A stretch of DNA of 64,000 bases, taken from the NCBI GenBank assembly GCA_947494995.1, contig CANLWY010000005.1, positions 124,001 to 188,000 of the forward strand. The letters run 5' to 3'. Below are positions 10,370-30,092 of this stretch, piece by piece (within the stretch, counting starts at the first letter, position 1; each line of letters opens with the position of its first letter). The notes under the pieces are model-generated. The model saw nothing but the letters and a program-made list of their open reading frames with translations. It was not told where the DNA came from and did not search any database. The DNA is from an uncultured Campylobacterales bacterium. GTDB taxonomy: Bacteria; Campylobacterota; Campylobacteria; Campylobacterales; Arcobacteraceae. The translations under genes and the position numbers were made by a program.

Positions 10370-10453
10370 TTGACAAATAATAAAAAAATATTGTATGATT
10401 TCAAACATAAATCGCGATTATTTTTTAATTTAGATTATTTATTAATCTTGATT
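10370..10453 (+). promoter_or_regulatory. caiT promoter with ATCRYGAT operator
   Basis: TTGACA at 10370-10375 and TATGAT at 10394-10399 are 18 bases apart. The palindrome TAATCGCGATTA (10409-10420) covers the expected transcription start, a position expected to repress. A weaker copy AATCTTGATT lies at 10444-10453. The same palindrome occurs at six further promoters in this window. Confidence 0.8.
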
Positions 10454-10502: not shown

Positions 10503-12011
10503 ATGGAACAGAAAAAGGTAGGTATTGAACCTAAAATATTTTTCCCCTCGCTAATTATTGTAGGTATTCTTGCATATTTAGTAGTAAGAGATTTAGATGC
10601 AGCAAATAAAGTTATTAATGCAACATTTAAATATATTACAAATCAATGGGGCTGGGCGTTTATTTGGTATATGATTGGTTTTGGTGGTATCTGGGCTTGG
10701 ATGCTTTTTGGTCCTATGAAAGACAAAAAGTTAGGTGAAGAAGAACCTGAATTTAGTAATACAAGCTGGATTTTCTTAATGTTCGCATCTTGTACTTCAG
10801 CAGCCGTACTTTACTGGGGAACAGCAGAAGCATATTATTATATAGCTTATCCGCCATTTGCATATGAAGCATTCTCTCCTGAAGCAAAAGAGCTTGGTCT
10901 TGCATATAGTTTATTCCACTGGGGTCCATTAGCTTGGGCTGGATATGCAGTATTAACAGTTGCCTTTGGTTACTTCATTTGGGTTAAAAAAATCAATGTA
11001 ATGAGACCAAGTGGTTGTATTGAAGGTGCAGTTGGTGAAAAACTTGCAAAAGGTTGGTTAGGAACAGTTATTGATAACTTCTATATCGTAGCACTTATTT
11101 TAGCAATGGGTACTAGTTTAGGTCTAGCAACTCCATTAGTTACTGAGTGTATGGAGTGGTTATTTGGTATTGAAAGAACTCTTCAATTAGATGCAATGAT
11201 TATTACTTGTTGGATTGTTTTCAATGCAGTTTGTGTTGCATTTGGTTTAACAAAAGGTATTAAACTTGCTAGTGATATTAGAAGTTACTTAACTATTATA
11301 ATGCTTGCTTGGGTTCTTATTATTGGATCTTCTGCATTTACAGTTAATTACTTTACTGATTCTGTTGGAGTTATGTTTGATAACCTAGGAAGAATGTTAT
11401 TTTATACTGATGCAATTAGACAAGGTGGATTCCCTCAAGGTTGGACAGTATTCTACTGGGCTTGGTGGGTAGTATTTGGTATTCAAATGTGTATCTTCTT
11501 AGCAAGAATTTCAAGAGGTAGAACAGTTAGAGAAATATGTTTAAATATGGTTGTTGGACTTACTCTTACAACTTGGGCTATGTGGACTATTCTGGGAAGT
11601 AACACGGTAAGTGTTATAAATAACAGTTTAATAAATCTTCCTGAAATTGTAAAAAATGAAGGTTTAGCTAGAGCTATTATTGAAACTTGGGCAAGTTTAC
11701 CATTATCTACTATTACAATGTGGGGATTCTTCATTTTATGTTTCCTTGCGACAGTAACACTTATTAATGCTTGCTCATATACATTAGCAATGTCTACTTG
11801 TAAAGAGGCTTCTGGATATAGCGAACCTCCATTATGGGTTAGAATTGGATGGTCAGTTCTTGTAGGTATTATTGGTATTACACTACTTGCTCTTGGAGGG
11901 TTAAAACCATTACAAACAGCTATTATTGCCGGTGGTTGTCCACTATTCTTTGTAAATATCATGATTATGGTTTCATTCTTCAAAGATGCAAAAAAGAACA
12001 AATGGTATTAA
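10503..12011 (+). CDS. caiT: L-carnitine/gamma-butyrobetaine antiporter CaiT (BCCT family)
   Basis: 502 residues against 504 in E. coli. It exchanges external carnitine or crotonobetaine for internal gamma-butyrobetaine, without an ion gradient. From memory of the E. coli protein, the sites for Glu111, Arg262 (which replaces sodium), Trp323 and Met331 are all kept ([29 protein letters not shown]). These separate CaiT from sodium-coupled betaine carriers such as BetP. Twelve membrane helices are visible. The start follows a strong CGGAGG site at 10490-10495. First gene of caiT-caiA-caiB-caiC-hydratase. Confidence 0.95.
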
Positions 12012-12049
12012 TAAAAATATATTGAAAATTATAAAAAGGTTATAAAGAG

Positions 12050-13186
12050 ATGATTAATTTTAAACTTACAGATGAACAAGAACTATTTGTTGATGGTGTA
12101 AAAGATTTAATGGAAAGAGAAAACTGGGAAGCTTACTTCGCAGAATGTGATGAAAAACATGAATATCCAATTAAATGGGTAAAAGAGTTAGCTGAATTAG
12201 GTATTGACACTATGCTTCTTCCTGAGGAGCATGGTGGTATGGATGAATCTATGGTTACACTAACTGCTATTTGGGCTGAGTTAGGAAGACATGGTGCACC
12301 AACTTATGTACTATACCAATTACCTGGATTTAGTACTATCTTAAGACATGGTTCTCAAGAACAAATCGACAAAATATTTAAATTCAGAGGAACAGGAGAG
12401 CAGATGTTTAACTCTGCTATTACTGAACCTGGTGCTGGTTCTGATGTAGGAAGTTTACAAACTACTTATAAAAGAAAAGACGGAAAAGTATATTTAAATG
12501 GTCAAAAATGTTTTATTACAAGTAGTTTAGGAACTCCTTATTTAATTGTAATGGCAAAAGATGCAGACTCTGAATCACCAATCTTTACAGAATGGTTTGT
12601 TGATATGGAAAAAGCAGGTATCAAACTTACTCCTTTAGATAAATTAGGATTAAGAATGGATAGTTGTTGTGAGGTTGTATTTGACAATGTTGAACTTGAA
12701 GAAAAAGATATGTTCGGAACTGAAGGTGAAGGTTTTAACAGAGTTAAAGCTGAATTTGATGACGAAAGATTCTTAGTAGCTTGCACAAACTATGGTGTAG
12801 CTTTATGTGCCTTTGAAGATGCTGCAACATATGCAAATCAAAGAGTACAGTTTGGAGAAACTATTGGAAGAACTCAATTAATTCAAGAAAAATTTGCACA
12901 TATGGAAATGAAATTAAATGCAATGAAAAATATGCTATTTGAAACAGCTTGGAAAATTGATAATGAAACAGTTACTTCAGGAGCAACTGCAATGTGCAAA
13001 TATTATTGTGCAAACGAAGCGTTCTCTGTAATTGATACTTCAATGCAAGTACTTGGTGGTATTGGTGTTACAGGTCATAGAGTTGGAAGATTCTGGAGAG
13101 ATTTAAGAATTGATAGATTATCTGGTGGTTCTGATGAAATGCAGATCTTAACTTTAGGAAGAGAAGTTCTTAAAAAATATAGATAA
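12050..13186 (+). CDS. caiA: Crotonobetainyl-CoA reductase CaiA (acyl-CoA dehydrogenase family)
   Basis: 378 residues (E. coli 380). FAD enzyme that reduces crotonobetainyl-CoA to gamma-butyrobetainyl-CoA using electrons from FixABCX. Recognisable stretches are the N-terminal [16 protein letters not shown], the FAD/substrate segment [32 protein letters not shown], and the C-terminal [20 protein letters not shown]. Overall similarity to enterobacterial CaiA is far above that to generic acyl-CoA dehydrogenases. Second gene of the operon. Confidence 0.95.
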
Positions 13187-13203: not shown

Positions 13204-14418
13204 ATGTCAAGTAAAGTACAAACACCAAAATTTGGACCACTTTCAGGGATGAAAGTCGTTTTTTCAGCAATTGAAATTGCTGGACCTTTCTCAGCGCAAA
13301 TGTTCGCTGAGTGGGGAGCTGAAGTTATTTGGATTGAGCACTCTGCTTATGCAGATACAATTAGAGTACAACCAAATTACCCAGAATTATCAAGAAGAAA
13401 TTTACATGCCTTATCTTTAAATGTTTTTTCAGAAGAAGGTAGAGAAGTTTTCCTAAAACTAATTGAAGATGCAGATGTTTTCATTGAGGCTAGTAAAGGA
13501 CCTGCTTTTGCAAAAAGAGGTATTACAGATGAATTATTATGGGAAAAAAATCCTAAATTAGTTGTTGGTCACCTTTCAGGTTTTGGTCAATATGGTACTG
13601 AAGAGTATACTCATTTAGCAGCATATAATACTATTGCTCAAGCATTTAGTGGATACTTAATGCAAAATGGAGATGTGGATCAACCAATGCCAGCATTCCC
13701 ATATACTGCTGATTATATGGCAGGATTTGCAGTAACTAGTTCAGTTTTAGCGGCTGTTTATAATGCACAAAAAACTGGTCAAGGTGAAAGTATTGATATT
13801 GCTATGTATGAAGTAATGTTAAGAGTTGGTCAATACTACATGATGGACTACTTAAATGGTGGTGAAATGTGTCCTAGAATGACAAAAGGAAAAGATCCTT
13901 TATATTGTGGATGTGGACTTTATAAATGTAGCGACGGATACATCGTATTTGAAATTGTAGGTGGCGCACAGGTAAAAGCAATGTTTACAGAGTTAGGAAT
14001 TGAACACTTACTTGGAACAGAAGAAGTGCCTGAAGGAACTCAACTTATTGCAAGAAGTATGCCTGTTGCGGAACCATTAGAAGATAAATTAGATTCATTC
14101 TTCCTTAAAAAAACAGTTGAAGAAGCATTAGCTCTTCTTGCAAGTCATAAAGTTGCAGGAGCAAAAGTTCTTGATGTTCATGAACTACAATCAAATCCTC
14201 AATATCTTGCAAGAGAATCTTTTACAGAATGGACATCTCAAAATGGTAAGAAAGTAAAAGGTCCAAATGTAATGCCTAAGTTTAAAAACAACCCAGGAAA
14301 GATTTGGAGAGCAAAACCTTCATATGGAAAAGATACAAAAGTGATTTTAGAAGATTTAGGTTATAGCCAAGAAGAGATTGATGGTTTAAAAGAAAATAAG
14401 ATAGTAAATATCGGTTAA
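13204..14418 (+). CDS. caiB: L-carnitine CoA-transferase CaiB, copy 1 (class III)
   Basis: 404 residues (E. coli 405). Transfers CoA from gamma-butyrobetainyl-CoA to carnitine or crotonobetaine. The catalytic aspartate is Asp170 in [10 protein letters not shown] (Asp169 in E. coli). The start [20 protein letters not shown] and the end [12 protein letters not shown] match CaiB closely. Of the two CaiB copies in the window, this one keeps the substrate-side residues nearest to E. coli ([15 protein letters not shown]), so it is the likely true CaiB. Ribosome site AAAGGA just before the ATG. Confidence 0.94.
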
Positions 14419-14450: not shown

Positions 14451-16031
14451 GTGGATATTATTGAACAAGAAAATTTACGTCAAATGTGGGACGAACTTGC
14501 TAAAATAAACGGCAATAAAAAAGCACTCATCTTTGAAGATATTTTAGGATTTACAAGAGAATATTCATATAGAGAATTAAATGAAATGATAAATAAGGCA
14601 GCAAACTTATTTCTTTCATTGGATATAAAAAAAGGCTCTAAAGTAATACTTCAATTAAGAAATAGCCCTGAATTCCTTTTTAGTTGGTTTGGATTAGCAA
14701 AAATAGGAGCAATAGCTGTACCTGTTAATGCTCATTATTTATATGATGAATGTAGTTTTATTATAAAAAAATGCCAACCTAAACTAGCTATTATTGAAGA
14801 GGATTTTTTACATATTTATGAAAAAGTTAAAGAAAACAATAATTCAACTATTGAACATATATTAATATCTAGAGCAAAAAAAGAAGTTAAAAATGAGTTT
14901 ATTGATTTTAATAAATCTTTAAATAACTACAATAATATTTTAGATGAGATAATCCCCATATCGAATCAAGATACAGCAGAGATATTATTTACTTCAGGAA
15001 CAACATCCTTTCCAAAAGGTGTAGTTATAACTCATTATAATTTAATGTTTGCAGGAAAGTTTACTTCTTGGCAAGCTTCATTACAACAAGATGATAGGTT
15101 TTTAACCGTTATGCCTGCTTGGCATATTGATTTTCAATGTACTGTTGCCATGCCCACTTTTGTCTCTGGCGCAACTTTTGTTCTTCTAGAAAAATATAGC
15201 GCGAGAAAATTTTGGAACCAAGTATGTGTTTATAAAGCTACAATCACTGAATGTATACCAAAAATTATGTGTACTTTATTAATGCAACCAGCAAAGGCTT
15301 GGGAAAAAGATCATTGTTTAAGAGAAGTATTTTATTACTTAAATATGTGTGATAAGGATAAAGATGCTTTTATTGAACGTTTTAACATAAAGTTGTTAAC
15401 CTCTTATGGTATGTCAGAGACAATTGTAGGGCTTATTGGTGATAGGCCTGGAGATGAAAGAAAATGGCCATCTATTGGAAAAGTAGGTTTTGGTTATGAA
15501 GCAAAAGTTATAGCTTGTGATGGAAAAGAAGTAAATCCAAATGTAATAGGTGATCTATATATTAAAGGAATCCCCGGAAAAACTATTTTTAAAGAATATT
15601 ATAAAGAACCAGAAATCACAAAAGAAGTTTTAAGTGATGATGGGTGGTTCAATACTCAAGATAGCGTTTATGTAGATGAATCTGGATATTTTTATTTTGT
15701 TGATAGAAAATCAAACTTAATAAAAAACTCTGGAGAAAATGTTTCTAGTATTGAAGTAGAAAACTTTTTATGTTCACATCCAAAAATTGCAGAAGCAGCT
15801 GTAATTGGAGTCGAAGATAAAATCTGCAATGAACTTATAAAAGCATTTGTAGTATTAAAAGACAAAGAACAGTTGAGTGAAGATGAAATAATAGATTATT
15901 GCTTTAATAATCTTGCAAAATTTAAAGTTCCTAATGAAATTGAAATTTTAAATTCTCTTCCTAAAACAGTTACAGGAAAAATAAAAAAGAATAAATTAAG
16001 AGAAAAAGAAAGGATAGATAATGGCAATTAA
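14451..16031 (+). CDS. caiC: Carnitine/crotonobetaine CoA ligase CaiC
   Basis: 526 residues (E. coli 517), GTG start after AAGGA. ATP-dependent acyl-CoA synthetase that primes the cycle by making carnitinyl- or crotonobetainyl-CoA. The AMP-binding signature is FTSGTTSFPKGVV (about 180). Later motifs are SYGMSETIVG, GWFNTQDSVY, DRKSNLIKNSGENVS and the C-terminal lysine motif PKTVTGKIKKNKL. It overlaps the next gene by 11 bases. Similarity to E. coli CaiC is clear but lower than for CaiA and CaiB. Confidence 0.9.
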   Translation: MDIIEQENLRQMWDELAKINGNKKALIFEDILGFTREYSYRELNEMINKAANLFLSLDIKKGSKVILQLRNSPEFLFSWFGLAKIGAIAVPVNAHYLYDECSFIIKKCQPKLAIIEEDFLHIYEKVKENNNSTIEHILISRAKKEVKNEFIDFNKSLNNYNNILDEIIPISNQDTAEILFTSGTTSFPKGVVITHYNLMFAGKFTSWQASLQQDDRFLTVMPAWHIDFQCTVAMPTFVSGATFVLLEKYSARKFWNQVCVYKATITECIPKIMCTLLMQPAKAWEKDHCLREVFYYLNMCDKDKDAFIERFNIKLLTSYGMSETIVGLIGDRPGDERKWPSIGKVGFGYEAKVIACDGKEVNPNVIGDLYIKGIPGKTIFKEYYKEPEITKEVLSDDGWFNTQDSVYVDESGYFYFVDRKSNLIKNSGENVSSIEVENFLCSHPKIAEAAVIGVEDKICNELIKAFVVLKDKEQLSEDEIIDYCFNNLAKFKVPNEIEILNSLPKTVTGKIKKNKLREKERIDNGN

Positions 16032-16875
16032 AACAGAAATGGTAGGTCAAACTTATGGACCTTTTATTAGAGATTATGACTGGAAAGCATTAAGTCTATT
16101 TGCATTAGGTAGTGGTGCAGCATTTGATGGAAAAACTGGTTTAAAATATGTTTATGAAGAAAAAGGTATGAAAATGCTTCCTACATTTGGAGCAATGCCA
16201 ATTGTAGATGCTGAAGTTACAAAAACAATTGACTGGGGATATGACTACACTGGTTCTTTACACTGGAGCTTTGATGTTAAGTTTCATAACCCATTAAAAA
16301 AACTTGAAGGTAAATTAAGTACTAAAGTATTATTAAAAGGTTTATTTGACAGAGGTGAAGGTAGAGGTACTTTAGCACAACATATTGGTGAAACTTATGA
16401 TGATGATGGTACGCACCTTTTTACTTGTGAGAGTTGGGATTGTTGTATCTTTGATGGTGGTTGGGATGGACCAAAAGCACCTAAAGATATCGTAGAAATT
16501 CCAGAAAGAGAGCCTGATTTTGAAGTTACTGAAGTAATTGCAGAAAATAGAGCATTAATCTATAGACTTTCAGGAGATACTCACCCTCAACATGTTGATT
16601 GGGATTATGCACAAGAAGTTGGATATCCAAAACCAAACTGTCATGCAGTAAGTACTGCTGGTGTTGCTTGTAGACATATTATTGATACTGTTTTAGATGG
16701 AGACCCTGATAGATTAACTAGATTTAAAACAAGAATTACTAAACCACTATTCCCAGGGTGTACAGTAAAAACTCAAATCTGGAAATGGGATGATAACTCT
16801 GTAAGATTTAGAGTTATTGATGCAAATGATCCAGAAATGATCTATTTTAATTTTGCATTAGCAGAATTTAAATAA
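16021..16875 (+). CDS. MaoC-type (hydratase 2) enoyl-CoA hydratase, catalytic copy
   Basis: 284 residues with a double-hotdog layout: a degenerate N-terminal half and a C-terminal half with the hydratase 2 signature RLSGDTHPQHVDW, Asp186 and His191 in the catalytic spacing (Asn of the usual GDxNP is His here). It sits in the operon where a hydratase is needed to interconvert carnitinyl-CoA and crotonobetainyl-CoA. Enterobacteria use the crotonase CaiD, which is missing from this window. I infer it does the CaiD job. It overlaps caiC by 11 bases and is followed by a terminator. Confidence 0.85.
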   Translation: MAIKTEMVGQTYGPFIRDYDWKALSLFALGSGAAFDGKTGLKYVYEEKGMKMLPTFGAMPIVDAEVTKTIDWGYDYTGSLHWSFDVKFHNPLKKLEGKLSTKVLLKGLFDRGEGRGTLAQHIGETYDDDGTHLFTCESWDCCIFDGGWDGPKAPKDIVEIPEREPDFEVTEVIAENRALIYRLSGDTHPQHVDWDYAQEVGYPKPNCHAVSTAGVACRHIIDTVLDGDPDRLTRFKTRITKPLFPGCTVKTQIWKWDDNSVRFRVIDANDPEMIYFNFALAEFK

Positions 16876-16981: not shown

Positions 16982-18205
16982 ATGGCAAAAAAAATTAACA
17001 CACCTGAATTTGGACCACTTTCTGGCGTTAGAGTAGTATTTTCTGCAATGGAAATTGCAGGGCCTTTCTCAGCACAAATGATGGCAGAATGGGGTGCAGA
17101 AGTTATCTGGTTAGAAGGTACTTCTTATGGAGATACAATTAGAGTACAAAAAAATTACTCTCAATATTTTAGAAGAAACCTTCATAGTTTATCAATTAAT
17201 ATTTTCTCAGATGAAGGGAAGGAAGCTTTCTTAAAACTTATTGAAACTGCTGATATCTTCATTGAATCAAGTAAAGGGCCATCATTTGCAAGAAAAGGTT
17301 TAACTGATGAACTACTATGGGAACATAATCCTGCTTTAGTTATAGGACACCTTTCTGGATATGGACAATATGGAGTTGAAAAATATATGAAACTTCCAGC
17401 ATATGATCATATTGCAGAAGCATTCAGTGGATACTTAATCCAAAATGGAGATGTGGATCAACCAATTCCTCCATATCCTTATGCAGGAGATTACTTCACT
17501 GGATTTACAATGTTAAGTGCTACTTTAGCAGCACTTTATAAAGCTAAAGAAACTGGTATTGGTGAAAGTATTGATGTTGCTATGTATGAATCACTACTAT
17601 GTGTTGGACAATACTATATGAGTGACTATTTCAATGAGGGTAAATTATACCCTAGACAGACAAATGGTAAAGATCCAATGTGTGCAGGAGTTGGAGTTTA
17701 TAAATGTAGTGATGGATACATTGTTATGGATTTAGTTGGATGGAAACAAGTTCAAGGAATGTTAACGCAAATGGGTGAAGATCATTTATTAGGAAAGGGA
17801 GATTATCCTGAAGGAACTCAAATGATACTAGGAGACACTTCTCATGCTAAATATTTAGAAGAAAAATTTGATATTTTCTTTGCACAAAAAACAGTAGCAG
17901 AAACTGAAGAACTATTTACAAAGCTAGCAGTTGCAGGGACAAAAGTACTTACTATTCCTGAACTTCAAGAAAAAGATCAGTATATTGCTAGAGAAAACTT
18001 TATTGAGTGGGACTCTATGGATGGAAACAAAGTAACAGGAATTAATACTATTCCAAAATTTAAAAAGAATCCAGGAAAAGTTTGGAGAGCTATGCCAAAT
18101 AGAGGTATGGATTCAGAAGCAATTTTAAGTGAACTAGGTTATTCAGAAGATGAAATTAAATTATTAGCAGATAGTGGAATTGTAAAACTAACTGCAGAAA
18201 AATAA
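16982..18205 (+). CDS. Class III CoA-transferase, CaiB paralogue 2
   Basis: 407 residues, same family and length as CaiB copy 1. It keeps the catalytic aspartate (Asp170 in [10 protein letters not shown]). It differs around the acyl-binding part ([19 protein letters not shown] versus [19 protein letters not shown] in copy 1) and in the C-terminal third. It is followed after 12 bases by the second MaoC-like gene, so copy 2 is a caiB-hydratase cassette. A different substrate (another betaine, or D-carnitine) or a regulatory role is possible. Ribosome site AAAGGAG at about 16970. No ATCRYGAT operator lies in front of it. Confidence 0.88.
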
Positions 18206-18217
18206 AAGGATTATAAA

Positions 18218-19069
18218 ATGGCAATTGACTTAAATTGCGTTGGAAAAACTTATGGGCCATATGAAGTTAACTATGATATTACTCAATTAAGTATTTTTGG
18301 TCTAGGAAGTGGTGCTGCAAGAGATAGTAAATCAGATTTAGATTGGGCCTATGAAAAAGATTTAAAAATTAATCCAGTTTACCTATCAACCTTTGTTGCA
18401 TCAGATGAAGTAACACAAGATATAGATTTTGGCTTTGATTGGGCAGGGATACTTCATTGGGGTATTGATATGAATATTCATAAACCTTTAACAAAATTAT
18501 CAGGGAAATTAACAACCCATGTAAAATTAAATGCTTTATATGATAGAGGTGAAGGTAAAGGTTGTTTAGCTCAAAAAATTGCTGAAACTTTTGATGAAGA
18601 TGGCGATAAACTTGTCACAATTGATAACTGGGATTGCTGTATCTATGATGGTGGTTTTGGAGGTGAAAAAGCTCCTAAAGATATTGTCGAGATGCCAGAA
18701 AGAGAACCAGACTTTGAAATTGAAGAAAAATTAGAATTAAATCAACCTAATATTTTTAGACTTCTAGGATGTTATCATCCTTTACACGTTGACTGGGAAT
18801 ATGCTCAAAAGTATGATTATCCAAGACCTATTCATATGGCTCTTGCTTTATCAGGAATGGCTAGTAGACATATTTGTAATACATTATTAGATAGAGACCC
18901 AACAAGATTAACAAGATTTAAGCTAAGATTCGCAGGAATTATTTATCCCGGAACAACAGTTAAAACACAAATTTGGAAATGGGATGATAACTCTGTAAGA
19001 TTTAGAGTTATTGATGCTATAGATTCAAATAAAGTATTATTAAATTTTGCATTAGCAGAATTTAAATAA
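18218..19069 (+). CDS. MaoC-like hotdog protein lacking the catalytic aspartate
   Basis: 283 residues, clear paralogue of the 16021-16875 product. At the hydratase 2 motif it reads RLLGCYHPLHVDW: the catalytic Asp is Cys185 while His190 is kept. The next conserved stretch is also changed (RPIHMALALSGMASRHI against KPNCHAVSTAGVACRHI). The coding frame is intact and the 3' end is strikingly conserved between the two genes, so this is not a decayed gene. It may be a non-catalytic partner of the first hydratase, or an enzyme with new chemistry. A terminator follows. Confidence 0.85.
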   Translation: MAIDLNCVGKTYGPYEVNYDITQLSIFGLGSGAARDSKSDLDWAYEKDLKINPVYLSTFVASDEVTQDIDFGFDWAGILHWGIDMNIHKPLTKLSGKLTTHVKLNALYDRGEGKGCLAQKIAETFDEDGDKLVTIDNWDCCIYDGGFGGEKAPKDIVEMPEREPDFEIEEKLELNQPNIFRLLGCYHPLHVDWEYAQKYDYPRPIHMALALSGMASRHICNTLLDRDPTRLTRFKLRFAGIIYPGTTVKTQIWKWDDNSVRFRVIDAIDSNKVLLNFALAEFK

Positions 19070-19294: not shown

Positions 19295-20902
19295 ATGAAT
19301 GTTTATATAATTGGAGTTCTAATTAGTGTATTGATATATATATTAATAGGTTTACTTGTTGGACGTAAAATAAAAAATGTAGAAGACTATTATGTGTCAG
19401 GTAGAAATGCTACGACTCTTTTTATCACTGGTACAATATTTGCATCAATGTTAAGTTCAAATGGTTTTATGGGTGATACTGCTTATGCTTATGATGGAAA
19501 TATAACAACCCTAGTATTACTTAATACTCTTTGTGGAATGGGATATATAATTGGAGGTCTGTTTTTTGGTCGTTATATTCGTAGATCAAAAGTAAATACA
19601 ATGCCCTCATACTTTGCTAAAAGATTTAACAGTAAAAGAATTCGTAGATTTGCAGGAATCATTACTATATTTTCTCTAAGTGCTTATCTTTTAAGTGTTA
19701 TTCAAGGGACAAGCCAATTAATGGAAATGATGATGGGACTTGATAGAGTCTACTGTCTTCTTATATCTTGGTTCTGTATTATGGCATTTACTTTATATTC
19801 CGGTTCAAAGGGAGTTATCATAACAGACACTGTTATGTTTATGTTCTTTTTAACTGCTACTATAGTTGCAGGACTATATATTTTTGATGCTGCTGGTGGA
19901 GTAACTAATTTAGTTGAAAACTTAATGAAAAATCCAAACACACCAGAAGGATTATTAGCTTATCATGGAAATACAAATGGATCATCTATCTTTGATACTG
20001 TATTTTATGGATTTACCATAGGAATTATTTGGATGATAACTGTTGCAGTTAGCCCTTGGCAAGCAGGAAGAAACCTAATGGTTAAAAATGAGCACATCAT
20101 ATTTAGATCTGGTGCTATGGCTTTTTTAATAATTGTATTTTTCCTTACATATCTTTATATTATGGCAATTTCAGTAATTCAATTAAACCCAAATATGGAA
20201 AATGCAGAAACTGTTATTATATGGACTGCTTTTGAGGTTATGCCTGAGTTTGTAGGAGTACTACTTCTAACAGGAATTATGTCAGCAGGATTATCATCTG
20301 CTTCAACATTTTTATCTGTTGTAAGTTTTTGTATGACAAGTGATGTCTTAGAAAAAAAGTTTAAAAGCGAAAAAGAGAATATCAATTTTACAAGAATAGT
20401 TATTTTTATAATAAGTACAATAGCTCTTATTTTAGCGTACCTTGATTTATCTTCAATGCGTATTATTGCTTGGTTTGCAAGTACAATAATTGCAGCTTCG
20501 TGGGGTTATTTAGCATTTGCTAGTGTTTGGTGTAAAAGAATCACAGAAAGAGGTGCATATCTTGCAATGTTAGGTGGTTTTTATGGATATTTAATAACAA
20601 AATGTTTAAAAGAGTTTGGAGACTTTCCTTTCACAAACCTTTTTGATCCTTTTTTCATGGGAGTTTATATAAGTATTGCGCTAGGAATGTTAGGCTCTTT
20701 AGGACAAAAAAGAACAGAGTATGAAATTAACTTTTTAAAGAATTTACATATACTTCCTCCAAGTGAGATAGTTGTAAAAGAGTATAAAAGAGATCGAATT
20801 TTTGGGTGGTTATTAATTGGTGCAGGGATATTTGTTATGTTCTTTCTAATCAAATATTGGGCTTTACCTTATAATGAAATCCTTGGAAATCAAATTTGGT
20901 AA
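19295..20902 (+). CDS. Sodium/solute symporter, SSS family
   Basis: 535 residues, about 13 membrane helices. Family features: GRKIKNVEDYYVSGR at the start, SSNGFMGDTAYAYDG in helix 1, RYIRRSKVNTMPSYFAKRF, and the sodium-site region GIMSAGLSSASTFLSV. It lies between the cai cassettes and panD, so the substrate could be a quaternary amine, a short organic acid or pantothenate. Sequence alone does not decide. Co-transcribed with the 40-residue accessory gene. Confidence 0.88.
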   Translation: MNVYIIGVLISVLIYILIGLLVGRKIKNVEDYYVSGRNATTLFITGTIFASMLSSNGFMGDTAYAYDGNITTLVLLNTLCGMGYIIGGLFFGRYIRRSKVNTMPSYFAKRFNSKRIRRFAGIITIFSLSAYLLSVIQGTSQLMEMMMGLDRVYCLLISWFCIMAFTLYSGSKGVIITDTVMFMFFLTATIVAGLYIFDAAGGVTNLVENLMKNPNTPEGLLAYHGNTNGSSIFDTVFYGFTIGIIWMITVAVSPWQAGRNLMVKNEHIIFRSGAMAFLIIVFFLTYLYIMAISVIQLNPNMENAETVIIWTAFEVMPEFVGVLLLTGIMSAGLSSASTFLSVVSFCMTSDVLEKKFKSEKENINFTRIVIFIISTIALILAYLDLSSMRIIAWFASTIIAASWGYLAFASVWCKRITERGAYLAMLGGFYGYLITKCLKEFGDFPFTNLFDPFFMGVYISIALGMLGSLGQKRTEYEINFLKNLHILPPSEIVVKEYKRDRIFGWLLIGAGIFVMFFLIKYWALPYNEILGNQIW

Positions 20903-20943: not shown

Positions 20944-21327
20944 ATGGTATTTGAAATGTTATATAGTAAAATCCATAGAGCAACTGTAACAGATGCAAAT
21001 TTAAATTATGTTGGCTCTATTACTATTGATGAAGAGTTGATGAATGCAGCAAAACTAAGAGTTGGACAAAAAGTTGATATTGTAAATATTAATAATGGAG
21101 AAAGATTCTCTACATATGTAATAAAAGGGAAAGCTGGGAATAGAGATATCTGCTTAAATGGTGCAGCTGCAAGAAAAGTACAAAAAGATGATAAAATTAT
21201 TATTATTGCATATACTAGTATTGATAGTAAAGAAATAGAGCAACATAAACCCTTAGTTGTATTATTAAACAATGAAAATAATATTGAATTAATTGATGAT
21301 AAATTAATTGCAGAAGAGTACAATTAA
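20944..21327 (+). CDS. panD: Aspartate 1-decarboxylase (pyruvoyl enzyme)
   Basis: 127 residues. Makes beta-alanine for pantothenate and CoA. Self-processing site at Gly-Ser in NYVGSITID. Other family blocks are [37 protein letters not shown] and [11 protein letters not shown]. The ATG at 20944 follows AAAAGGA at 7 bases and adds four residues to the usual MLYSK start. Its place inside a CoA-dependent carnitine island is notable, because panB lies at 34384. Confidence 0.93.
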
Positions 21328-21454: not shown

Positions 21455-22165
21455 ATGTCAGAAAAAGAAGAAAGAGAACAATTAAAACAGTATAGAATTA
21501 TGCGTTACTTCATAGATGCGACAATTGAAATAATTGAAGAAACAGGAATCGAAGGAGTAACAATTAGAAAAGTTGCAAATCAAGCAGGTTATACAAGTGC
21601 TACTTTATATAACTATTTTGATAATTTGACTCATCTAATTTTTCTTGCGAATATGTGCCATTTAGAAAAATATAATGAAAGCTTACCTAAATGTATTGAA
21701 AACTGCAAAAATCCAATTGATGTATATATGTCAATATGTAAATGTTACACAAAACACTCATTTGAAAAACCTGAAATATTTGAGCTTCTTTTCTTTTCTC
21801 AAAGAAGTGATAAATTTGAAGAGTACACAAATCAATACTATGAACTATACCCTAAAAGAGAGAAGAAAATTAAATCAAAGATGTTAAAAAAACTATTTCA
21901 TTTAAATAATCTTCATAATAGAAGTTTTAACTTATTATTACCTTGTATTGAAGAAGGAATGATAGAAAAAGAAGAGGCTATAGATTTTACAGATATTTGT
22001 CTTCGATTTAATAAAACAATTTTACAAGATGTAAAAAATAAAATTTTAGATAAAGAAGAAGCAACTGCCCTACTTCTGAAATATTATTCTCAACTATTAA
22101 AATTCTATTTAAAACCTGATTTTAGACACTTAGTTGATGAGGCTATGGTAAATATAACAAAATAG
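21455..22165 (+). CDS. TetR-family transcriptional regulator (copy 1)
   Basis: 236 residues. N-terminal helix-turn-helix (GVTIRKVANQAGYTSATLYNYFDNLTHL, shown here in part: VANQAGYTSATLYNYF). The C-terminal ligand domain is rich in acidic and aromatic residues. Strongly related to the TetR at 23849 along the full length, including the unusual N-terminal KQxRIMxYFI. It stands alone between panD and the esterase operon. It is a candidate repressor for the ATCRYGAT palindromes, with a CoA thioester or a betaine as ligand (inference). Confidence 0.9.
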   Translation: MSEKEEREQLKQYRIMRYFIDATIEIIEETGIEGVTIRKVANQAGYTSATLYNYFDNLTHLIFLANMCHLEKYNESLPKCIENCKNPIDVYMSICKCYTKHSFEKPEIFELLFFSQRSDKFEEYTNQYYELYPKREKKIKSKMLKKLFHLNNLHNRSFNLLLPCIEEGMIEKEEAIDFTDICLRFNKTILQDVKNKILDKEEATALLLKYYSQLLKFYLKPDFRHLVDEAMVNITK

Positions 22166-22212: not shown

Positions 22213-22242
22213 TTGACAAACTAATCATGATTATTTTATAAT
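22213..22242 (+). promoter_or_regulatory. Esterase-ribA-tetR2 promoter with operator
   Basis: TTGACA at 22213-22218, TATAAT at 22237-22242, 18 bases apart. The perfect palindrome TAATCATGATTA (22222-22233) fills the spacer, so binding would block RNA polymerase. Confidence 0.82.
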
Positions 22243-22272: not shown

Positions 22273-23238
22273 ATGTTACATAATAAGATTGATATCTATT
22301 CACATATGACAGATGAAATGAAAAAAGTTTTACAAATACAAGAAACAAATAGTAAGAAAGAGTCAAGTTCAGATTTACTTGATATAAGAGAAGAGTACGA
22401 AGAAGAAAGAAAGTTTTGGAATGAAGATGCACCAGAACTTTTTAAGGTTTTTGATAAAACAATTTCTGGTCCTTATGGTGATATATCACTTAGATTTTAT
22501 TATCCAAATAATCAAGATATTAACAATTGTGTAGTCTTTATTCATGGTGGAGGTTTTATATTAGGTAGCTCTAACACCCATGATAAAACAATTAGAAACT
22601 TTGCTAAACACTCAAGCAGTGTTACAGTATCTATTGATTATAAGCTTTCACCTGAACATAAATTCCCTGTAGCTATTAAAGAGAGTGCTACTTTAGTAAA
22701 ATATTTACGACAAAATGCTACAAAATATAAAATTAACAAAAACTCAATCTCTTTTGTTGGAGATTCCGCTGGCGCAAATCTTTGCTTAGGAACAACTCTT
22801 TTTCTAAGAGATGAATTAGAAGATATCTCTTTTATAAAATCTTTAATTTTATACTATGGACTATTTGGATTGAAAGACTCACCTTCAAGAAGAGTATTAG
22901 GAGGACCTTGGGATGGATTATCTAAAGAAGATCTAAAGTATTATGAAACTTCATACTTAAATAATGAAGAAGAATCAAATCATCCTTATTATGATTGTTT
23001 AAATGCTGACCTTTCATATGGAATTCCTCCTGTTTACTTAGCAGTTGCAGAACTTGATCCTTTAAAAGATGACTCTTTTGCATTAGAAAAAATTTTAAAA
23101 AAACATAATATAACTTGTGAACTAGAAGAATTTAAAGGAATGCTTCACTCCTTCTTACACTACTCTAGAATTGTTCCTCAAGCAGAACAAGCAATTATTG
23201 CAGGTAGTGATTTTTTTAAAAAACATACAAATAAATAA
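22273..23238 (+). CDS. Alpha/beta hydrolase of the hormone-sensitive lipase family
   Basis: 321 residues. Oxyanion motif FIHGGGFILG, nucleophile GDSAGAN with Ser165, acid AELDPLKD and base MLHSF are all present, the full set of the HSL (IV) esterase family. It has no signal peptide, so it is cytoplasmic. It is first in an operon with ribA and a TetR gene under the island's operator. Hydrolysis of acylcarnitine or another ester that releases carnitine or gamma-butyrobetaine is a reasonable hypothesis but is not shown by the sequence. Confidence 0.87.
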   Translation: MLHNKIDIYSHMTDEMKKVLQIQETNSKKESSSDLLDIREEYEEERKFWNEDAPELFKVFDKTISGPYGDISLRFYYPNNQDINNCVVFIHGGGFILGSSNTHDKTIRNFAKHSSSVTVSIDYKLSPEHKFPVAIKESATLVKYLRQNATKYKINKNSISFVGDSAGANLCLGTTLFLRDELEDISFIKSLILYYGLFGLKDSPSRRVLGGPWDGLSKEDLKYYETSYLNNEEESNHPYYDCLNADLSYGIPPVYLAVAELDPLKDDSFALEKILKKHNITCELEEFKGMLHSFLHYSRIVPQAEQAIIAGSDFFKKHTNK

Positions 23239-23250: not shown

Positions 23251-23817
23251 ATGGAAAATATTAAAATATCAGAAAAAGCAGATCTTCCTAGTATTTTTGG
23301 AAAATTTAAAATCCAGACTTTTAAAGAAGATATAAAAGAACACTTAGTGATTTTTTCAGAACAGATTGATGAAAATCCAATTGTTAGAATACATAGTGAA
23401 TGTCTTACTGGTGATGCACTTGGATCCTTGAAATGTGACTGTAGAGAACAACTTGAACATTCATTAAAAACTATTAATAAAAAAGGTGGCATAGTAATTT
23501 ATTTAAGACAGGAAGGAAGAAATATTGGTTTATACAATAAAGTAAATGCCTATGCTCTACAAGATAAAGGCTTTGATACCATTGAAGCAAATGAAAAGTT
23601 AGGTTTTAAAAAAGATGAAAGAACATACGAAATGGTAGATTTTATTTTAAAATATTTAAAAATAAAAAAAATTCAATTACTAACAAATAATCCAAAAAAA
23701 GTTGAATCACTAAAAGAGATTGAAGTTATAAAAAGATGTCCTATAGTAATGAATTCAAATGAATATAATGAGCAATATTTGAAAACTAAAAAAGAGTTAA
23801 TGGGACATCTTTTTTAG
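23251..23817 (+). CDS. ribA: GTP cyclohydrolase II
   Basis: 188 residues, stand-alone RibA. First step of riboflavin synthesis. The three zinc cysteines are Cys51, Cys62 and Cys64 (ECLTGDALGSLKCDC). Other motifs are IVIYLRQEGRNIGLYNK and LLTNNPKKVE. It starts 12 bases after the esterase. The other rib gene in the window (ribBX) has lost this activity's metal site, so this copy probably supplies it, here under control of the carnitine regulon. Confidence 0.93.
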   Translation: MENIKISEKADLPSIFGKFKIQTFKEDIKEHLVIFSEQIDENPIVRIHSECLTGDALGSLKCDCREQLEHSLKTINKKGGIVIYLRQEGRNIGLYNKVNAYALQDKGFDTIEANEKLGFKKDERTYEMVDFILKYLKIKKIQLLTNNPKKVESLKEIEVIKRCPIVMNSNEYNEQYLKTKKELMGHLF

Positions 23818-23848: not shown

Positions 23849-24586
23849 ATGCCAGAAAAAGATGAAAGAGAGAAGATAAAACAACATAGGATAATGAAAT
23901 ACTTCATTCAATCTACAATAAAAATCATTCAAGAAGAAAATATTGGTTCAGTTACAATTAGAAAAGTTGCAAATCATGCTGGATATACAAGTGCAACACT
24001 ATATAACTACTTTGATAACTTAAGCCACCTAGTATTTTTAGCTAATATGACTCATTTAGAAGATTACAATAAAAAAATATTTAGATGTGTAAGCGATTGT
24101 AAAAACCCAATAGAAGTTTATATGTCTGTATGTAAATGTTTTTCAGTACACGCATATGAAAATCCTGAAATCTTCACACATCTATTTTTCTCACAAGAAA
24201 GAGAAAAATATGATGAATATACAGATCAATACTATGAACTGTTTCCTGAAAAGAAGGATACTGTAATACCTGAGGTTTTAGAAAAGATGTTTCATATAAA
24301 CAATCTTTATAATAGAAGTTTTATTATGTTGAAAAAGTGTATTGATGAAGATTATATTGAAGAAGAAAATGCAAAAGATTTTAATGACATTTGTCTTAGG
24401 TTTAATAAAACAATCTTAGATGATGTTTCTAATAATTTATTAGCTAAAGATGAAGCCTTAAAATTGACATTAAAATATTATTATCAACTTTTTACTTTTT
24501 TTATAAAACCTGAATATAAATATATTTTAGAAGAGTACTACCCTAAACTAATCTCAAATAATAAAAAAATAGCACATTTTAATTAA
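23849..24586 (+). CDS. TetR-family transcriptional regulator (copy 2)
   Basis: 245 residues. The helix-turn-helix VANHAGYTSATLYNYFDN is almost identical to that of the 21455 gene, so both probably read the same DNA site. The ligand domains are similar but diverged, including the shared DYIEEENAKDFNDICLRFNKT block. Third gene of the esterase-ribA operon, which carries the palindrome in its promoter, so feedback control is likely. Confidence 0.9.
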   Translation: MPEKDEREKIKQHRIMKYFIQSTIKIIQEENIGSVTIRKVANHAGYTSATLYNYFDNLSHLVFLANMTHLEDYNKKIFRCVSDCKNPIEVYMSVCKCFSVHAYENPEIFTHLFFSQEREKYDEYTDQYYELFPEKKDTVIPEVLEKMFHINNLYNRSFIMLKKCIDEDYIEEENAKDFNDICLRFNKTILDDVSNNLLAKDEALKLTLKYYYQLFTFFIKPEYKYILEEYYPKLISNNKKIAHFN

Positions 24587-24633: not shown

Positions 24634-24686
24634 TTGACAAATAATCGTGATTATTGTAAGATTCTGATTATAAAAAGATCACGATT
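24634..24686 (+). promoter_or_regulatory. fixA promoter with two operator copies
   Basis: TTGACA at 24634-24639 and TAAGAT at 24657-24662, 17 bases apart. The palindrome TAATCGTGATTA (24642-24653) lies between them and a second copy GATCACGATT at 24677-24686 lies downstream of the start. Confidence 0.8.
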
Positions 24687-24714: not shown

Positions 24715-25473
24715 ATGAAAATTTTAGTTGGTTGTAAACTTGTACCAGAAGATCAAGATATCATTGTTAAACCTGATGGAACTCTTGATATGAATAAGGC
24801 TGCTCCAAAAATTAGTCAATTTGATTTAAATGCGGTTGAAACAGCAGTTGAAATAAAAAAAATGAATGAAGATGTGACTATCACAGCAATGAGTGTTGGA
24901 GGAAAATATCTTCAAAATGTAAAAGTTAAAAAAGACATGTTGTCTAGAGGTCCAGATGAATTAATTGCTATTAGTGATGAGAGCTATGAAAACATTCTAC
25001 CACACCAAACAGCGCAAATTCTAGCAAATGCAGTTAAAGAAAACGAATGGGATCTTTTTATTTGTGGAGATGGATCAGGAGATCTTTATGCACAACAAAC
25101 AGGTATTAGACTGGGTGCACTATTAGATGTACCTACAGTTAATGGTGTAAGCAAACTAATTTCAGTAGAAAATGAAAAAATTACTGTTGAAAGAGCTTTA
25201 GAAAATGAAGTTGAAACATTAGAGATTCCTCTTCCTGCAGTAATTTGTGTATCAGCAGATATTAATGAACCATCAATTCCAGGAATGAAAGCTATTTTAG
25301 CAGCTGGTAAAAAACCAGTAACAACTCCTGTTATAGACATTGAAGATTCAAAAGTTGTTGAATTAGTTGAAGTAAAAGCTCCTAAGAAAAAAGAGAGAGC
25401 TCATGTTGTTATTGAAGGCGATGGAGAAGATCAAATCGCTGAATTTGTAACTCACTTAAAAAAATTTATTTAA
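24715..25473 (+). CDS. fixA: Electron transfer flavoprotein beta-type subunit FixA
   Basis: 252 residues (E. coli FixA about 256). With FixB it forms the flavoprotein that feeds electrons to CaiA. Recognisable parts are the N-terminal MKILVGCKLVPEDQDI, the internal LFICGDGSGDLYAQQTG and the end PAVICVSADINEPSIPG. First gene of fixABCX, with ribosome site AAGGAG at 24701-24706. Confidence 0.94.
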   Translation: MKILVGCKLVPEDQDIIVKPDGTLDMNKAAPKISQFDLNAVETAVEIKKMNEDVTITAMSVGGKYLQNVKVKKDMLSRGPDELIAISDESYENILPHQTAQILANAVKENEWDLFICGDGSGDLYAQQTGIRLGALLDVPTVNGVSKLISVENEKITVERALENEVETLEIPLPAVICVSADINEPSIPGMKAILAAGKKPVTTPVIDIEDSKVVELVEVKAPKKKERAHVVIEGDGEDQIAEFVTHLKKFI

Positions 25474-25488
25474 TTATTGGAGAATAAA

Positions 25489-26430
25489 ATGAGTAAAGTA
25501 TCAAATGTATGGGTTTTTAGTGATGTTTCTGCACGTTTATCAGAAGTGATGACAGGAGCACTTGAGTTTGGTGAGAAAGTATCTGCTTTAGTTATTGGAT
25601 CAGAGGAAGATGTTGCAAAAGCATATGCATATGGAGCAACTGAGGTTTTCCACTTAGGAGAAAATGATTCTTCAAAAATTATTGAAAGTTACGCAAAAAC
25701 AGTTGCTTCAGTTATTAAAAATGAAGAAACATCTCTTGTTTTAATGCCAGGAATTAAAAGATGTAAATCATTAGCTTCTCTTTTAGCTGTTGAATTAAAT
25801 GCAGGACTTGTAACTGAAGTATCAGCTATAGAAGTTGAAGATGATTCAATTAAATGTAAACACATGGTTTATGGTGGTCTTGCAATTGGTGAAGAAGCGA
25901 TTACTACAAATGTAGCAATTGCTGTAATTTCAAGTGGTATTTTTGAAGAAGCTTCAGCTGATTCTTCTAAAACAGGTGAGGCAAAAACTGTTGAGTTTAT
26001 TTCACCTGCTAAAGAGATTAAGTGTGTAGATAGAAAAGCAAAAGAAGGAAGTAGCGTAGATTTAAATAAAGCAAAAAATATTATTGCTATTGGTAGAGGT
26101 ATTGCCAAACAAGAAGATATTCAGCTTGCAGAAAATTTATGTTCAATTATGGATGCAGAACTTGGTTGTTCAAGACCTATTGCAGAAGGTGAAAAATGGA
26201 TGGAACACGAAAGATATATTGGTATCTCTAGTGTTATGGCAAAACCTGAAATCTACTTCGCAGTTGGAATCTCTGGACAAATTCAACATATGGTAGGTGC
26301 AAAAGATTCTCAAACGATTATTGCAATCAATAAAGATAAAAATGCACCAATTTTTGATTATGCTGACTATGGAATTGTAGGGGATTTATATACAATACTT
26401 CCTGCAATTACAGAAGCACTTAAAAAATAA
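25489..26430 (+). CDS. fixB: Electron transfer flavoprotein alpha-type subunit FixB
   Basis: 313 residues, the same length as E. coli FixB, when started at ATG 25489 (GGAGA at 25479-25483). An in-frame TTG at 25477 precedes it but overlaps the ribosome site. The C-terminal FAD-binding part reads IAIGRGIAKQEDIQLAENL, GCSRPIAEGEKW, YIGISSVMAKPEIYFAVGISGQIQH. Partner of FixA in electron delivery to crotonobetainyl-CoA reductase. Confidence 0.94.
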   Translation: MSKVSNVWVFSDVSARLSEVMTGALEFGEKVSALVIGSEEDVAKAYAYGATEVFHLGENDSSKIIESYAKTVASVIKNEETSLVLMPGIKRCKSLASLLAVELNAGLVTEVSAIEVEDDSIKCKHMVYGGLAIGEEAITTNVAIAVISSGIFEEASADSSKTGEAKTVEFISPAKEIKCVDRKAKEGSSVDLNKAKNIIAIGRGIAKQEDIQLAENLCSIMDAELGCSRPIAEGEKWMEHERYIGISSVMAKPEIYFAVGISGQIQHMVGAKDSQTIIAINKDKNAPIFDYADYGIVGDLYTILPAITEALKK

Positions 26431-26455: not shown

Positions 26456-27742
26456 ATGTCTGAAGATAAATTTGACGCAATAATTGTTGGTGGTGGAATT
26501 GCAGGTTGCATCACTGGATATTTACTAGCCCAAGCAGGACTAGAGGCTCTTATTATTGAAAAAGGTAATTTTTCTGGAGCTAAAAATATGACTGGGGGCA
26601 GACTTTATGCCCACAGTATAGAGAAAATCTTTCCAGATTTTGCTAATGAAGCACCAATTGAAAGATCTATAGTACATGAAAAAATCTCTTTTATGACAGA
26701 AGAGAGTTGTGTAACAATGGATTATAATGCTCCTGAAGCAGAAAAAAATGAAGATCGTTCATATACTATATTAAGAACAAAATTTGATCAATGGTTAACA
26801 CAAAAAGCTGAAGAATCAGGGGTTGGAGTTGTTCCTGGAATTAGAGTTGATGATCTAATTGTAAGAGATGGAAAGGTATGTGGAGTTATTGCAGCTGGTG
26901 AAGAGATGGAAGCTGATGTAGTAGTTCTTGCTGATGGAGTAAACTCTATTTTAGGTGAAAAACTTGGAATGGTATCAAAAGTTACACCTCATAACTGTGC
27001 TGTAGGTGCAAAAGAAGTAATCCAACTATCTAAAGAGCAAATAAATGATAGATTTAATTGTAGTGATGAAGAAGGTGCAGCTTGGTTATTTGCAGGAACT
27101 CCTTCTGATGGATATATGGGTGGTGGATTCTTATATACAAATGAAGACACAATTTCTTTAGGTGTAGTATTTGGTCTACATAATATTGAAAAAGCAGGAA
27201 AATCTATTCCTCAGATGTTAGAAGATTTCAAACAACACCCAACTATCAAACCTTTGATTGAAGGTGGTGAAATGGTTGAATACTCTGCTCATGTTGTGCC
27301 CGAAGGTGGATATAATATGCTTCCTAAAATGGTTGATGATGGAGTACTTATTGTAGGAGATGCAGCAGGACTTTGTCTTAATGTAGGATATACAGTAAGA
27401 GGAATGGACTTAGCAATTGCTTCAGGAGAAGCTGCAGCAAATGCAATCATTGCAGCAAAAGTTAAAAATGATTTTAGTAAAAATAGCCTTTCTTCATACA
27501 CAAAAGAGTTAGATGATAGTTTTGTTATGAAAGATCTAAAACTTTATAAAGATTTACCAGAATTTTTAGATAATGAACGAATGTTCAATGATTATCCAGA
27601 AATGACTACTGGTATTATGAAAGATATGTTTACGATTAATGGACCAAGTACTCCTATTATGAAAATGGTAATGCCTCATCTTAAAAAAGTAGGATTTATG
27701 AACCTTCTTAAAGATGGATATAAAGGAGTCAAATCGCTATGA
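26456..27742 (+). CDS. fixC: FAD-dependent electron-transfer oxidoreductase FixC
   Basis: 428 residues, identical in length to E. coli FixC. The N-terminal dinucleotide motif is DAIIVGGGIAGCITGYLLAQ. The ETF-QO-type region includes GDAAGLCLNVGYTVRGMD near residue 300. With FixX it passes electrons between the flavoprotein FixAB and other carriers. It overlaps fixX by 4 bases (ATGA). Confidence 0.95.
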   Translation: MSEDKFDAIIVGGGIAGCITGYLLAQAGLEALIIEKGNFSGAKNMTGGRLYAHSIEKIFPDFANEAPIERSIVHEKISFMTEESCVTMDYNAPEAEKNEDRSYTILRTKFDQWLTQKAEESGVGVVPGIRVDDLIVRDGKVCGVIAAGEEMEADVVVLADGVNSILGEKLGMVSKVTPHNCAVGAKEVIQLSKEQINDRFNCSDEEGAAWLFAGTPSDGYMGGGFLYTNEDTISLGVVFGLHNIEKAGKSIPQMLEDFKQHPTIKPLIEGGEMVEYSAHVVPEGGYNMLPKMVDDGVLIVGDAAGLCLNVGYTVRGMDLAIASGEAAANAIIAAKVKNDFSKNSLSSYTKELDDSFVMKDLKLYKDLPEFLDNERMFNDYPEMTTGIMKDMFTINGPSTPIMKMVMPHLKKVGFMNLLKDGYKGVKSL

Positions 27743-28026
27743 AAAATGAAGTAAATGTAGATGTAAAACTTGGAATAAACAAATTTTTTGTTGATGAAGG
27801 TGAAGCACATATTGAATTAGTTGATAATCCTGATCCAAAAGAGTTTAGAAAACTTGAAATTGCTTGTCCTGCAGGACTTTACAAAAAAGATGAAAATGGA
27901 AATATTCATTTTGACTATGCAGGATGTTTAGAGTGTGGAACATGTAGAGTTTTATGTGGAAAAACTATTATTAAAAAATGGGAATATCCAAATGGAACTT
28001 TCGGAGTAGAATTTAGATATGGATAA
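27739..28026 (+). CDS. fixX: Ferredoxin-like protein FixX
   Basis: 95 residues, as in E. coli. Cysteine pattern CPAGLYKKDENGN then CLECGTCRVLC, enough for a 4Fe-4S cluster. Last gene of fixABCX. Starts inside the stop region of fixC and is followed by a terminator. Confidence 0.94.
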   Translation: MKNEVNVDVKLGINKFFVDEGEAHIELVDNPDPKEFRKLEIACPAGLYKKDENGNIHFDYAGCLECGTCRVLCGKTIIKKWEYPNGTFGVEFRYG

Positions 28027-30059: not shown

Positions 30060-30092
30060 AAGGGTCAAGTTTTAAACTTGACCCTTTTTTTA
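30060..30092. terminator. Terminator between the porin and ribBX (convergent)
   Basis: AAGGGTCAAG and CTTGACCCTT form a strong stem closed by an AT-rich turn, followed by a run of T on the + strand. It ends the porin transcript and may also serve ribBX from the other side. Confidence 0.8.

Follow-up and report, generated by a model that had tools for sequence, protein, structure and literature searches.

The window analysed here, a 64,000-nucleotide stretch of DNA from an uncultured Campylobacterales bacterium of the Arcobacteraceae (assembly GCA_947494995.1, contig CANLWY010000005.1, positions 124,001 to 188,000), carries a cai-fix cluster for carnitine reduction in which the slot of the crotonase gene caiD is occupied by a gene for a MaoC-type hot-dog protein, termed MaoC1. 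Judged from sequence comparisons, MaoC1 appears to be a real and recurrent alternative hydratase of carnitine reduction. It is very likely a crotonobetainyl-CoA hydratase of one hand or the other, and rather probably the hydratase/dehydratase of anaerobic carnitine reduction acting on L-carnitinyl-CoA. MaoC1 is assigned to the CaiD step because no close CaiD and no crotonase gene with the candidate operator within 1.5 kilobases were found in the genome, because its gene keeps its coupling to caiC in different phyla, and because clusters of the same order have a crotonase and, in the stretch fetched, no MaoC. In the proposed pathway, carnitine would be imported by CaiT and converted to carnitinyl-CoA by CaiC or CaiB. 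MaoC1 would then remove water, with Asp186 and His191 as acid-base pair, to give crotonobetainyl-CoA, which CaiA, fed through FixABCX, would convert to gamma-butyrobetainyl-CoA; CoA would be recycled by CaiB. MaoC-type and crotonase-type hydratases would accordingly be alternative parts of one pathway.

The caiD-less cluster and its hydratase

The genes of the cluster are as follows.

10503 to 12011, + strand: caiT, L-carnitine/gamma-butyrobetaine antiporter (844 bits, cut-off 541)
12050 to 13186, + strand: caiA, crotonobetainyl-CoA dehydrogenase (reductase) (705 bits, cut-off 540)
13204 to 14418, + strand: caiB1, L-carnitine CoA-transferase (671 bits, cut-off 413)
14451 to 16031, + strand: caiC, crotonobetaine/carnitine-CoA ligase (799 bits, cut-off 651)
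16021 to 16875, + strand: MaoC1, hot-dog hydratase-2-type protein, proposed crotonobetainyl-CoA hydratase (preceded by caiC in 60 of the 76 loci compared)
16576 to 16593, + strand: MaoC1 codons 186-191, D-T-H-P-Q-H, with the catalytic Asp186/His191; His188 and Gln190 replace the canonical Asn and Leu
24715 to 25473, + strand: fixA, electron-transfer flavoprotein subunit (357.8 bits, cut-off 219)
25477 to 26430, + strand: fixB, electron-transfer flavoprotein subunit (380.6 bits, under cut-off 549)
26456 to 27742, + strand: fixC, FAD-dependent oxidoreductase (642 bits, cut-off 466)
27739 to 28026, + strand: fixX, ferredoxin-like (135 bits, under cut-off 166)
28073 to 28663, + strand: CaiE/PaaY-like hexapeptide protein (CaiE model 244 bits, cut-off 305; PaaY model 261, cut-off 319.6)

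An earlier note on this DNA had listed caiT, caiA, caiB and caiC as present, and all four products score above the cut-offs of their NCBIfam models. Its fixABCX genes are all there, with FixA and FixC passing subfamily models and FixB and FixX staying under the equivalog cut-offs, while its E. coli-like caiE is weaker than claimed: the product stays under the CaiE cut-off, and the PaaY model, whose own cut-off is likewise missed, scores higher. With CaiT, CaiA, CaiB and CaiC over their cut-offs and FixABCX present, the locus is a cai-fix carnitine reduction cluster in all but caiD: as the note had stated, the window gave no CaiD-like match at E<=1e-8. The hot-dog hydratase that the note placed in this slot was likewise recovered, as an open reading frame for 284 amino acids with both Asp186 and His191, overlapping caiC by 11 nucleotides.

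MaoC1 matches the Pfam families MaoC_dehydratas (59.1 bits, cut-off 27) and MFE-2 hydratase-2 N domain (36.8, cut-off 27). The CaiD model NF002936, on which E. coli CaiD scores 563, does not match it, and HadA/HadB, at 19 bits, was the single model returned by the NCBIfam scan. An AlphaFold model (predicted local distance difference test 80.7, predicted template modelling score 0.84, 24 sequences) has the hydratase-2 domain of human MFE-2 as best match (Foldseek 2.4e-25; for 1s9c Z 30.7, root-mean-square deviation 2.3, 273 aligned, 25% identity), and the predicted fold is a double hot-dog. This fold and the Asp/His pair are common to MaoC1 and 2-enoyl-CoA hydratase 2 (human and yeast MFE-2; PDB 1s9c, 1pn2 and 1pn4), from which MaoC1 differs by its D-x-H-P-Q-H signature, the extra Trp82 and Trp194 and its place in a carnitine operon. 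With E. coli CaiD, a crotonase, it shares the slot behind caiC and the presumed reaction, whereas fold and catalytic residues are unrelated.

Asp186 and His191 are kept in all 71 aligned MaoC1 members, as are Trp82, His188 and Trp194; Gln190 and Trp139 are found in 70 of the 71, and Asp193 is changed to Asn in one. The signature D-x-H-P-Q-H (GDxHPQHxDW in its longer form) stands in place of the classical D-x-N-P-L-H, which is also read in the aligned PDB relatives. All three outgroup hydratases lack the MaoC1-specific residues and have Asn, Pro, Leu, Gly and Ala/Ser at those positions. Set against the published hydratase-2 motif YRLSGDXNXLHIDP (PMC3823801), the Asp and His are retained and Asn, Leu and Pro are replaced by His188, Gln190 and Trp194, giving a variant motif. 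Trp82, Trp139 and Trp194 likely bind the trimethylammonium group and may form an aromatic box around it.

The cai cluster and fixABCX have a candidate operator in common, by which MaoC1 and fixABCX would belong to one candidate regulon. The palindrome AATCNNGATT, a pattern chosen after inspection of four promoters, occurs 10 times in the window compared to 2.9 +/- 1.6 times in shuffled sequence, where a count of 10 was attained in none of 100 shuffles. Eight of these boxes lie 27-168 bases before caiT, an esterase gene, fixA, a porin gene and a metallo-hydrolase-panB gene pair, and two lie elsewhere. The palindrome is a candidate for the operator of the two TetR regulators listed here.

10410, 10444, 22223, 24643, 28816, 28850, 33603 and 33722: promoter boxes matching the AATCNNGATT pattern
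10410 to 10453: two candidate operator boxes (AATCNNGATT), caiT promoter
21455 to 22165, + strand: TetR-family regulator (PF00440)
22223 to 22232: candidate operator box (AATCNNGATT), esterase promoter
22273 to 23238, + strand: HSL-type esterase (Aes-like), candidate acylcarnitine hydrolase (PRK10162, 389.5 bits, cut-off 389)
23849 to 24586, + strand: second TetR-family regulator (PF00440)
24643 to 24652: candidate operator box, fixA promoter, between -35-like and -10-like elements

In the cluster of a congener (L010), five boxes were counted, a number not attained in any of 200 shuffles. Two are at the start of the porin gene, and caiT, ribBA and a TetR gene are preceded by a single box each. 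A box is found near fixA in five of six crotonase-type clusters of the same order and is missing from the sixth (L103); in one cluster taken alone (L099), the two boxes do not exceed chance (36 of 200 shuffles).

The genome of the window (3,167,823 bases in 31 contigs, 99.99% complete) was searched for CaiD as the earlier note had proposed. Five crotonase-like matches, 35, 35, 32, 30 and 22% identical to the E. coli CaiD query, were obtained, none of them a close CaiD, and a hidden CaiD elsewhere in the genome was rejected, the best crotonases being only 35% identical. The NCBIfam model scan covered the three short crotonases (32-35% identical) and not the two long ones; the models matching the short ones are PaaG (355 bits, against a cut-off of 345), PaaF-like and those for general enoyl-CoA hydratases, with the CaiD model absent from the 25 best for each. 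In a tree with long branches, they fall outside a group (98/97) of CaiD and the crotonases of Campylobacterota cai clusters, two types that may or may not go back to a single origin. A co-regulated caiD elsewhere, named by the note as the finding that would speak against it, was looked for and not encountered: the candidate operator box is absent within 1.5 kilobases of all five crotonase-like loci, where a more distant promoter is possible.

Occurrence of MaoC1 and order of events

When genomes of 84,980 species were scanned, 91 pattern matches were obtained; 71 of these encode a relative, at 69 distinct loci. The hosts are Actinomycetota, Bacillota, a Dormiibacterota metagenome-assembled genome, Shewanella, Ferrimonas, Endozoicomonas and Enterobacillus. 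Among the genome of the window and 40 near relatives, MaoC1 was found in two, the own genome and one congener (80% identity). A 56% identical MaoC1 is encoded on a Curtobacterium plasmid (L006) behind an AMP-binding ligase gene (36% identical to E. coli CaiC); no CaiA match was obtained on the stretch of this plasmid fetched. Beside the CaiC-like and MaoC1 genes of the plasmid lies a CaiB-like gene (11070-12364) readable only in two frames.

Altogether 76 MaoC1 loci were compared (the window, L010, L006, 68 from the scan and 5 from a CaiA search in the order of Winkia); two of the last five appear to repeat the scan loci L071 and L072, leaving about 74 distinct places. The nearest upstream gene of the query set is caiC in 60 loci, caiD in 13 and MaoC2, a paralogue described below, in one, while the contig edge comes first in two. 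The gaps between the aligned parts of caiC and MaoC1 range from -7 to 323 nucleotides in the 60 loci (median 34.5). A chance open reading frame was rejected, as the MaoC1 family recurs behind caiC in many lineages. Viral spread was dismissed as well, the scan of viral contigs having given 16 pattern matches and no relative.

Samples anchored on CaiA are independent of the MaoC search; their centre genomes were picked for carrying MaoC1 and are to be excluded from rates. In the class of the window, CaiA was found in 7 of 397 genomes; the own genome has the MaoC, and in the other six there is a crotonase with 40-43% identity to CaiD of E. coli. These six crotonase-type clusters, all of the same order, contain no MaoC in the stretch fetched; the SSS transporter of the window recurs in 6 of 6 and its esterase in 5 of 6. 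CaiA was over the cut-off in 6 of 394 genomes of the order of Shewanella L013: one with both enzymes, four with CaiD and, as far as the fetched stretches reach, without MaoC, and one in which CaiA stands alone close to the end of a contig, accompanied by neither enzyme. In the order of Winkia (248 genomes), all seven genomes with CaiA encode MaoC1, and the stretch contains no crotonase. CaiA was confined to the centre genome in three further samples, namely the class of Schinkia (398 genomes), the order of Endozoicomonas (234 genomes) and the phylum of L019 (235 genomes).

The whole-genome search for CaiD covered 42 of 43 hosts chosen (40 of the 69 scan loci plus G013, L006 and L080). A close CaiD (84-89% identical) was present in 11 of them, all Shewanella or Ferrimonas with MaoC1 adjacent; five more gave matches of 36-41% at best, and 26 gave no CaiD match at E<=1e-40. 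Counting the scan hosts alone, 29 of 40 are without a close CaiD.

A CaiA tree of 39 rows, hand-picked from 85, and four outgroup rows was rooted with YdiO-type dehydrogenases. All crotonase-bearing clusters fall inside one clade of 17 proteobacterial and Campylobacterota rows (93/96, short of starred), and the 22 rows outside it (18 Actinomycetota/Dormiibacterota, 4 Bacillota) are MaoC-only without exception. The CaiA of the window is nested among crotonase-type relatives (97/92), and that of Enterobacillus, accompanied by a MaoC, is sister to the E. coli-type CaiD clusters (96/91). At least three changes of the crotonase label are required on this tree, with which an unrooted tree of 59 rows agrees. 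In its simplest reading, the MaoC may be the older state and the crotonase the later one. The earlier note had described a non-orthologous replacement of CaiD. That the hydratase fills the CaiD step is well backed by its context, namely the absence of a close CaiD and the coupling to caiC, whereas the order with CaiD first is not, and the replacement probably ran the other way, because all deep lineages on the rooted tree, the sampling of which is biased, are MaoC-only.

Substrate, stereochemistry and alternative explanations

A substitute for CaiD is not a new idea. A cluster of Propionibacterium freudenreichii with caiABC and fixABCX, without caiD and caiT, has an enoyl-CoA hydratase and an MFS transporter between the two gene groups, and MFS and alpha/beta hydrolase genes near the cai genes (PMC11007987). 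In isolates with the complete caiD-less cluster, acylcarnitines were depleted and more carnitine and putative gamma-butyrobetaine were found, an effect which the same report, the Scoary2 paper, tied to a transporter, a hydrolase and the completeness of the cluster (PMC11007987). The filling of the caiD gap by an enoyl-CoA hydratase is thus already in print, in one sentence and with the family unnamed; the passages on this cluster give no hydratase family name, distribution or stereochemistry (PMC11007987). Its layout resembles that of the MaoC1-bearing locus of Brooklawnia (L047), which reads MFS, esterase, caiA, caiB, caiC, MaoC1, MFS, metallo-hydrolase, an open reading frame without Pfam match and fix genes. 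A MaoC hydratase for carnitine was not encountered in the open-access literature, as covered by titles and the beginnings of abstracts, with subscription journals outside the scope; one article, on thiodipropionate (PMC6370202), has the words carnitine, MaoC and CaiD in its text. As far as this search reaches, the present analysis adds the family with its spread, the likely direction of replacement, its occurrence alongside CaiD, the changed motif and a stereochemical conflict.

This conflict arises as follows. Natural carnitine is L-carnitine, which is the R enantiomer. By our own reasoning from the established Cahn-Ingold-Prelog rules, CH2-N outranks CH2-CO, so that the geometry of L-carnitine is that of a (3S)-hydroxyacyl-CoA, the product of crotonases, and the geometry of D-carnitine that of the (3R) form, the product of MaoC enzymes. 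Known MaoC hydratases give R products (PMC11321319). From this rule and the (3S) geometry of L-carnitine it follows that the MaoC1 subfamily either breaks the rule or handles D-carnitine; L is clearly, not overwhelmingly, favoured over D as the substrate.

Several observations weigh against MaoC1 as the L-specific, older stand-in for CaiD. By the above reasoning, the R products of MaoC hydratases correspond to D-carnitine and not to L-carnitine. In Shewanella and Ferrimonas, CaiD and MaoC1 are encoded side by side (13 of the 76 loci), so that MaoC1 is not always a substitute and may do something that CaiD does not. Five of the 40 hosts have crotonases 36-41% identical to CaiD, which could act in trans. 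The hydratase of P. freudenreichii is presumed, from the resemblance of its cluster to L047, to be a MaoC1. As to the reversed order of events, most Gram-positive rows of the CaiA tree came via the MaoC-based search, and the label is biased accordingly.

It is possible but unlikely that MaoC1, in keeping with the stereochemistry of its family, hydrates crotonobetainyl-CoA to the D enantiomer, producing or using up D-carnitinyl-CoA and forming a two-enzyme carnitine racemase with CaiD where the latter is present. The adjacent CaiD and MaoC1 genes just mentioned would fit such a pair. With 29 of 40 hosts lacking a close CaiD, however, use of D-carnitine alone would be common, even though natural carnitine is the L form, and the neighbouring esterase points to natural acylcarnitines. 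The stereospecificity of the MaoC family (PMC11321319) is in favour of the D form, and a carnitine racemase activity has been described in enterobacteria, where it is attributed to CaiD, without a MaoC (PMC2131755). The P. freudenreichii isolates with the full cluster, moreover, alter the carnitines of milk and putative gamma-butyrobetaine (PMC11007987).

A crotonase encoded elsewhere on the chromosome might perform the CaiD step in trans, with MaoC1 using another CoA ester. The genome offers three candidates in the short crotonases; this explanation is improbable, given their place outside the group of CaiD and Campylobacterota cai crotonases (with the long branches noted), their PaaG, PaaF-like and general hydratase model matches in place of CaiD, and the absence of operator boxes in the 1.5 kilobases around all five crotonase-like loci. 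Hot-dog folds also include thioesterases, which appear low in the list of structural matches. That MaoC1 is a thioesterase or another hot-dog enzyme on CoA esters of the pathway, and no hydratase, is nevertheless very improbable in view of its double hot-dog hydratase-2 architecture with the Asp/His motif and of the separate metallo-beta-lactamase-fold hydrolase that is present in the L047 and L049 clusters and lies close to that of the window.

The preferred assignment of MaoC1 to L-carnitinyl-CoA can be extended, tentatively and with less than even confidence, to the proposal that MaoC1 founds a hot-dog subfamily which handles this substrate against the R rule by means of its D-x-H-P-Q-H-x-D-W site, and which preceded the CaiD-type crotonases as hydratase of the CaiA-type pathway, to be displaced by them in Enterobacterales and some Campylobacterota.

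Neighbouring genes and significance

Downstream of MaoC1, further genes are located, the first two of which are absent from the earlier note.

16982 to 18205, + strand: caiB2, second CaiB-type CoA-transferase (616 bits, cut-off 413)
18218 to 19069, + strand: MaoC2, MaoC1 paralogue (57% identical; catalytic Asp changed to Cys, Gln190 to Leu)
19295 to 20902, + strand: SSS-family sodium/solute symporter (TIGR00813, 113.8 bits, below cut-off 184)

A second CaiB with an Asp-less MaoC2 was noted in the window (16982-19069), in L011 (9108-9959) and in L074 (8664-10852). Three MaoC2 members were found (the window, Endozoicomonas elysicola and Ferrimonas kyonanensis), all in genomes that also carry MaoC1. 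They form one clade (98/95), in which Asp186 is replaced by Cys, Ile or Asn and Gln190 by Leu, while Trp82, Trp139, Trp194 and His188 are retained. CaiB2 keeps, in the alignment, the Asp of the CaiB active-site region. MaoC2 might be an inert partner subunit or an enzyme with a changed reaction. HadA and HadC are inert MaoC partners of the active HadB in the HadAB and HadBC dehydratases (PMC11321319), a possible model for MaoC2 as inert partner of MaoC1; unlike there, MaoC1 is already a double hot-dog, and a complex of MaoC1 and MaoC2 is hypothetical. The MaoC2 locus of F. kyonanensis has a BCCT transporter of its own, a copy of CaiA and fixABCX, and may thus serve a sister pathway in which a different betaine is used. 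No MaoC2 was found near the further CaiA copies of two genomes (G844 and G734).

An esterase of the HSL type is repeatedly encoded in the cai clusters of Campylobacterota, Actinomycetota and Shewanella and is likely an acylcarnitine hydrolase, in line with the hydrolase of P. freudenreichii (PMC11007987). An OprD-type porin is encoded in the same candidate regulon (window, 28877-30019; L010, 17419-18585) and may let carnitine or acylcarnitines pass the outer membrane. The sigma-70 consensus is matched in 12 of 12 positions (spacer 18) before the esterase gene (22213-22242) and the porin gene (28774-28803) and in 11 of 12 before caiT, with promoter-like counts overall at chance level. Cofactor genes lie in or beside the carnitine regulon (20944-21327, 23251-23817, 30090-31145 on the - strand and 34384-35193; panD, ribA, a ribBA-like gene and panB) and may supply CoA and flavin for the carnitine pathway; panD and the GTP cyclohydrolase II gene (ribA) of the window each have another copy elsewhere in the genome.

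MaoC1 as an alternative hydratase would change how carnitine-using bacteria are recognised. The gammaBMGC database defines the capacity to convert carnitine to gamma-butyrobetaine by an intact caiTABCDE cluster (PMC11857547), and surveys with this requirement probably miss caiD-less clusters, among them the ones in Actinomycetaceae of the mouth, for example Actinobaculum sp. oral taxon 183. If the substrate is L-carnitinyl-CoA, two unrelated folds would have converged on one reaction, and MaoC1 would be an exception to the consistent stereochemistry reported for MaoC hydratases. If it is D-carnitinyl-CoA, the Shewanella operons would encode a two-enzyme carnitine racemase.

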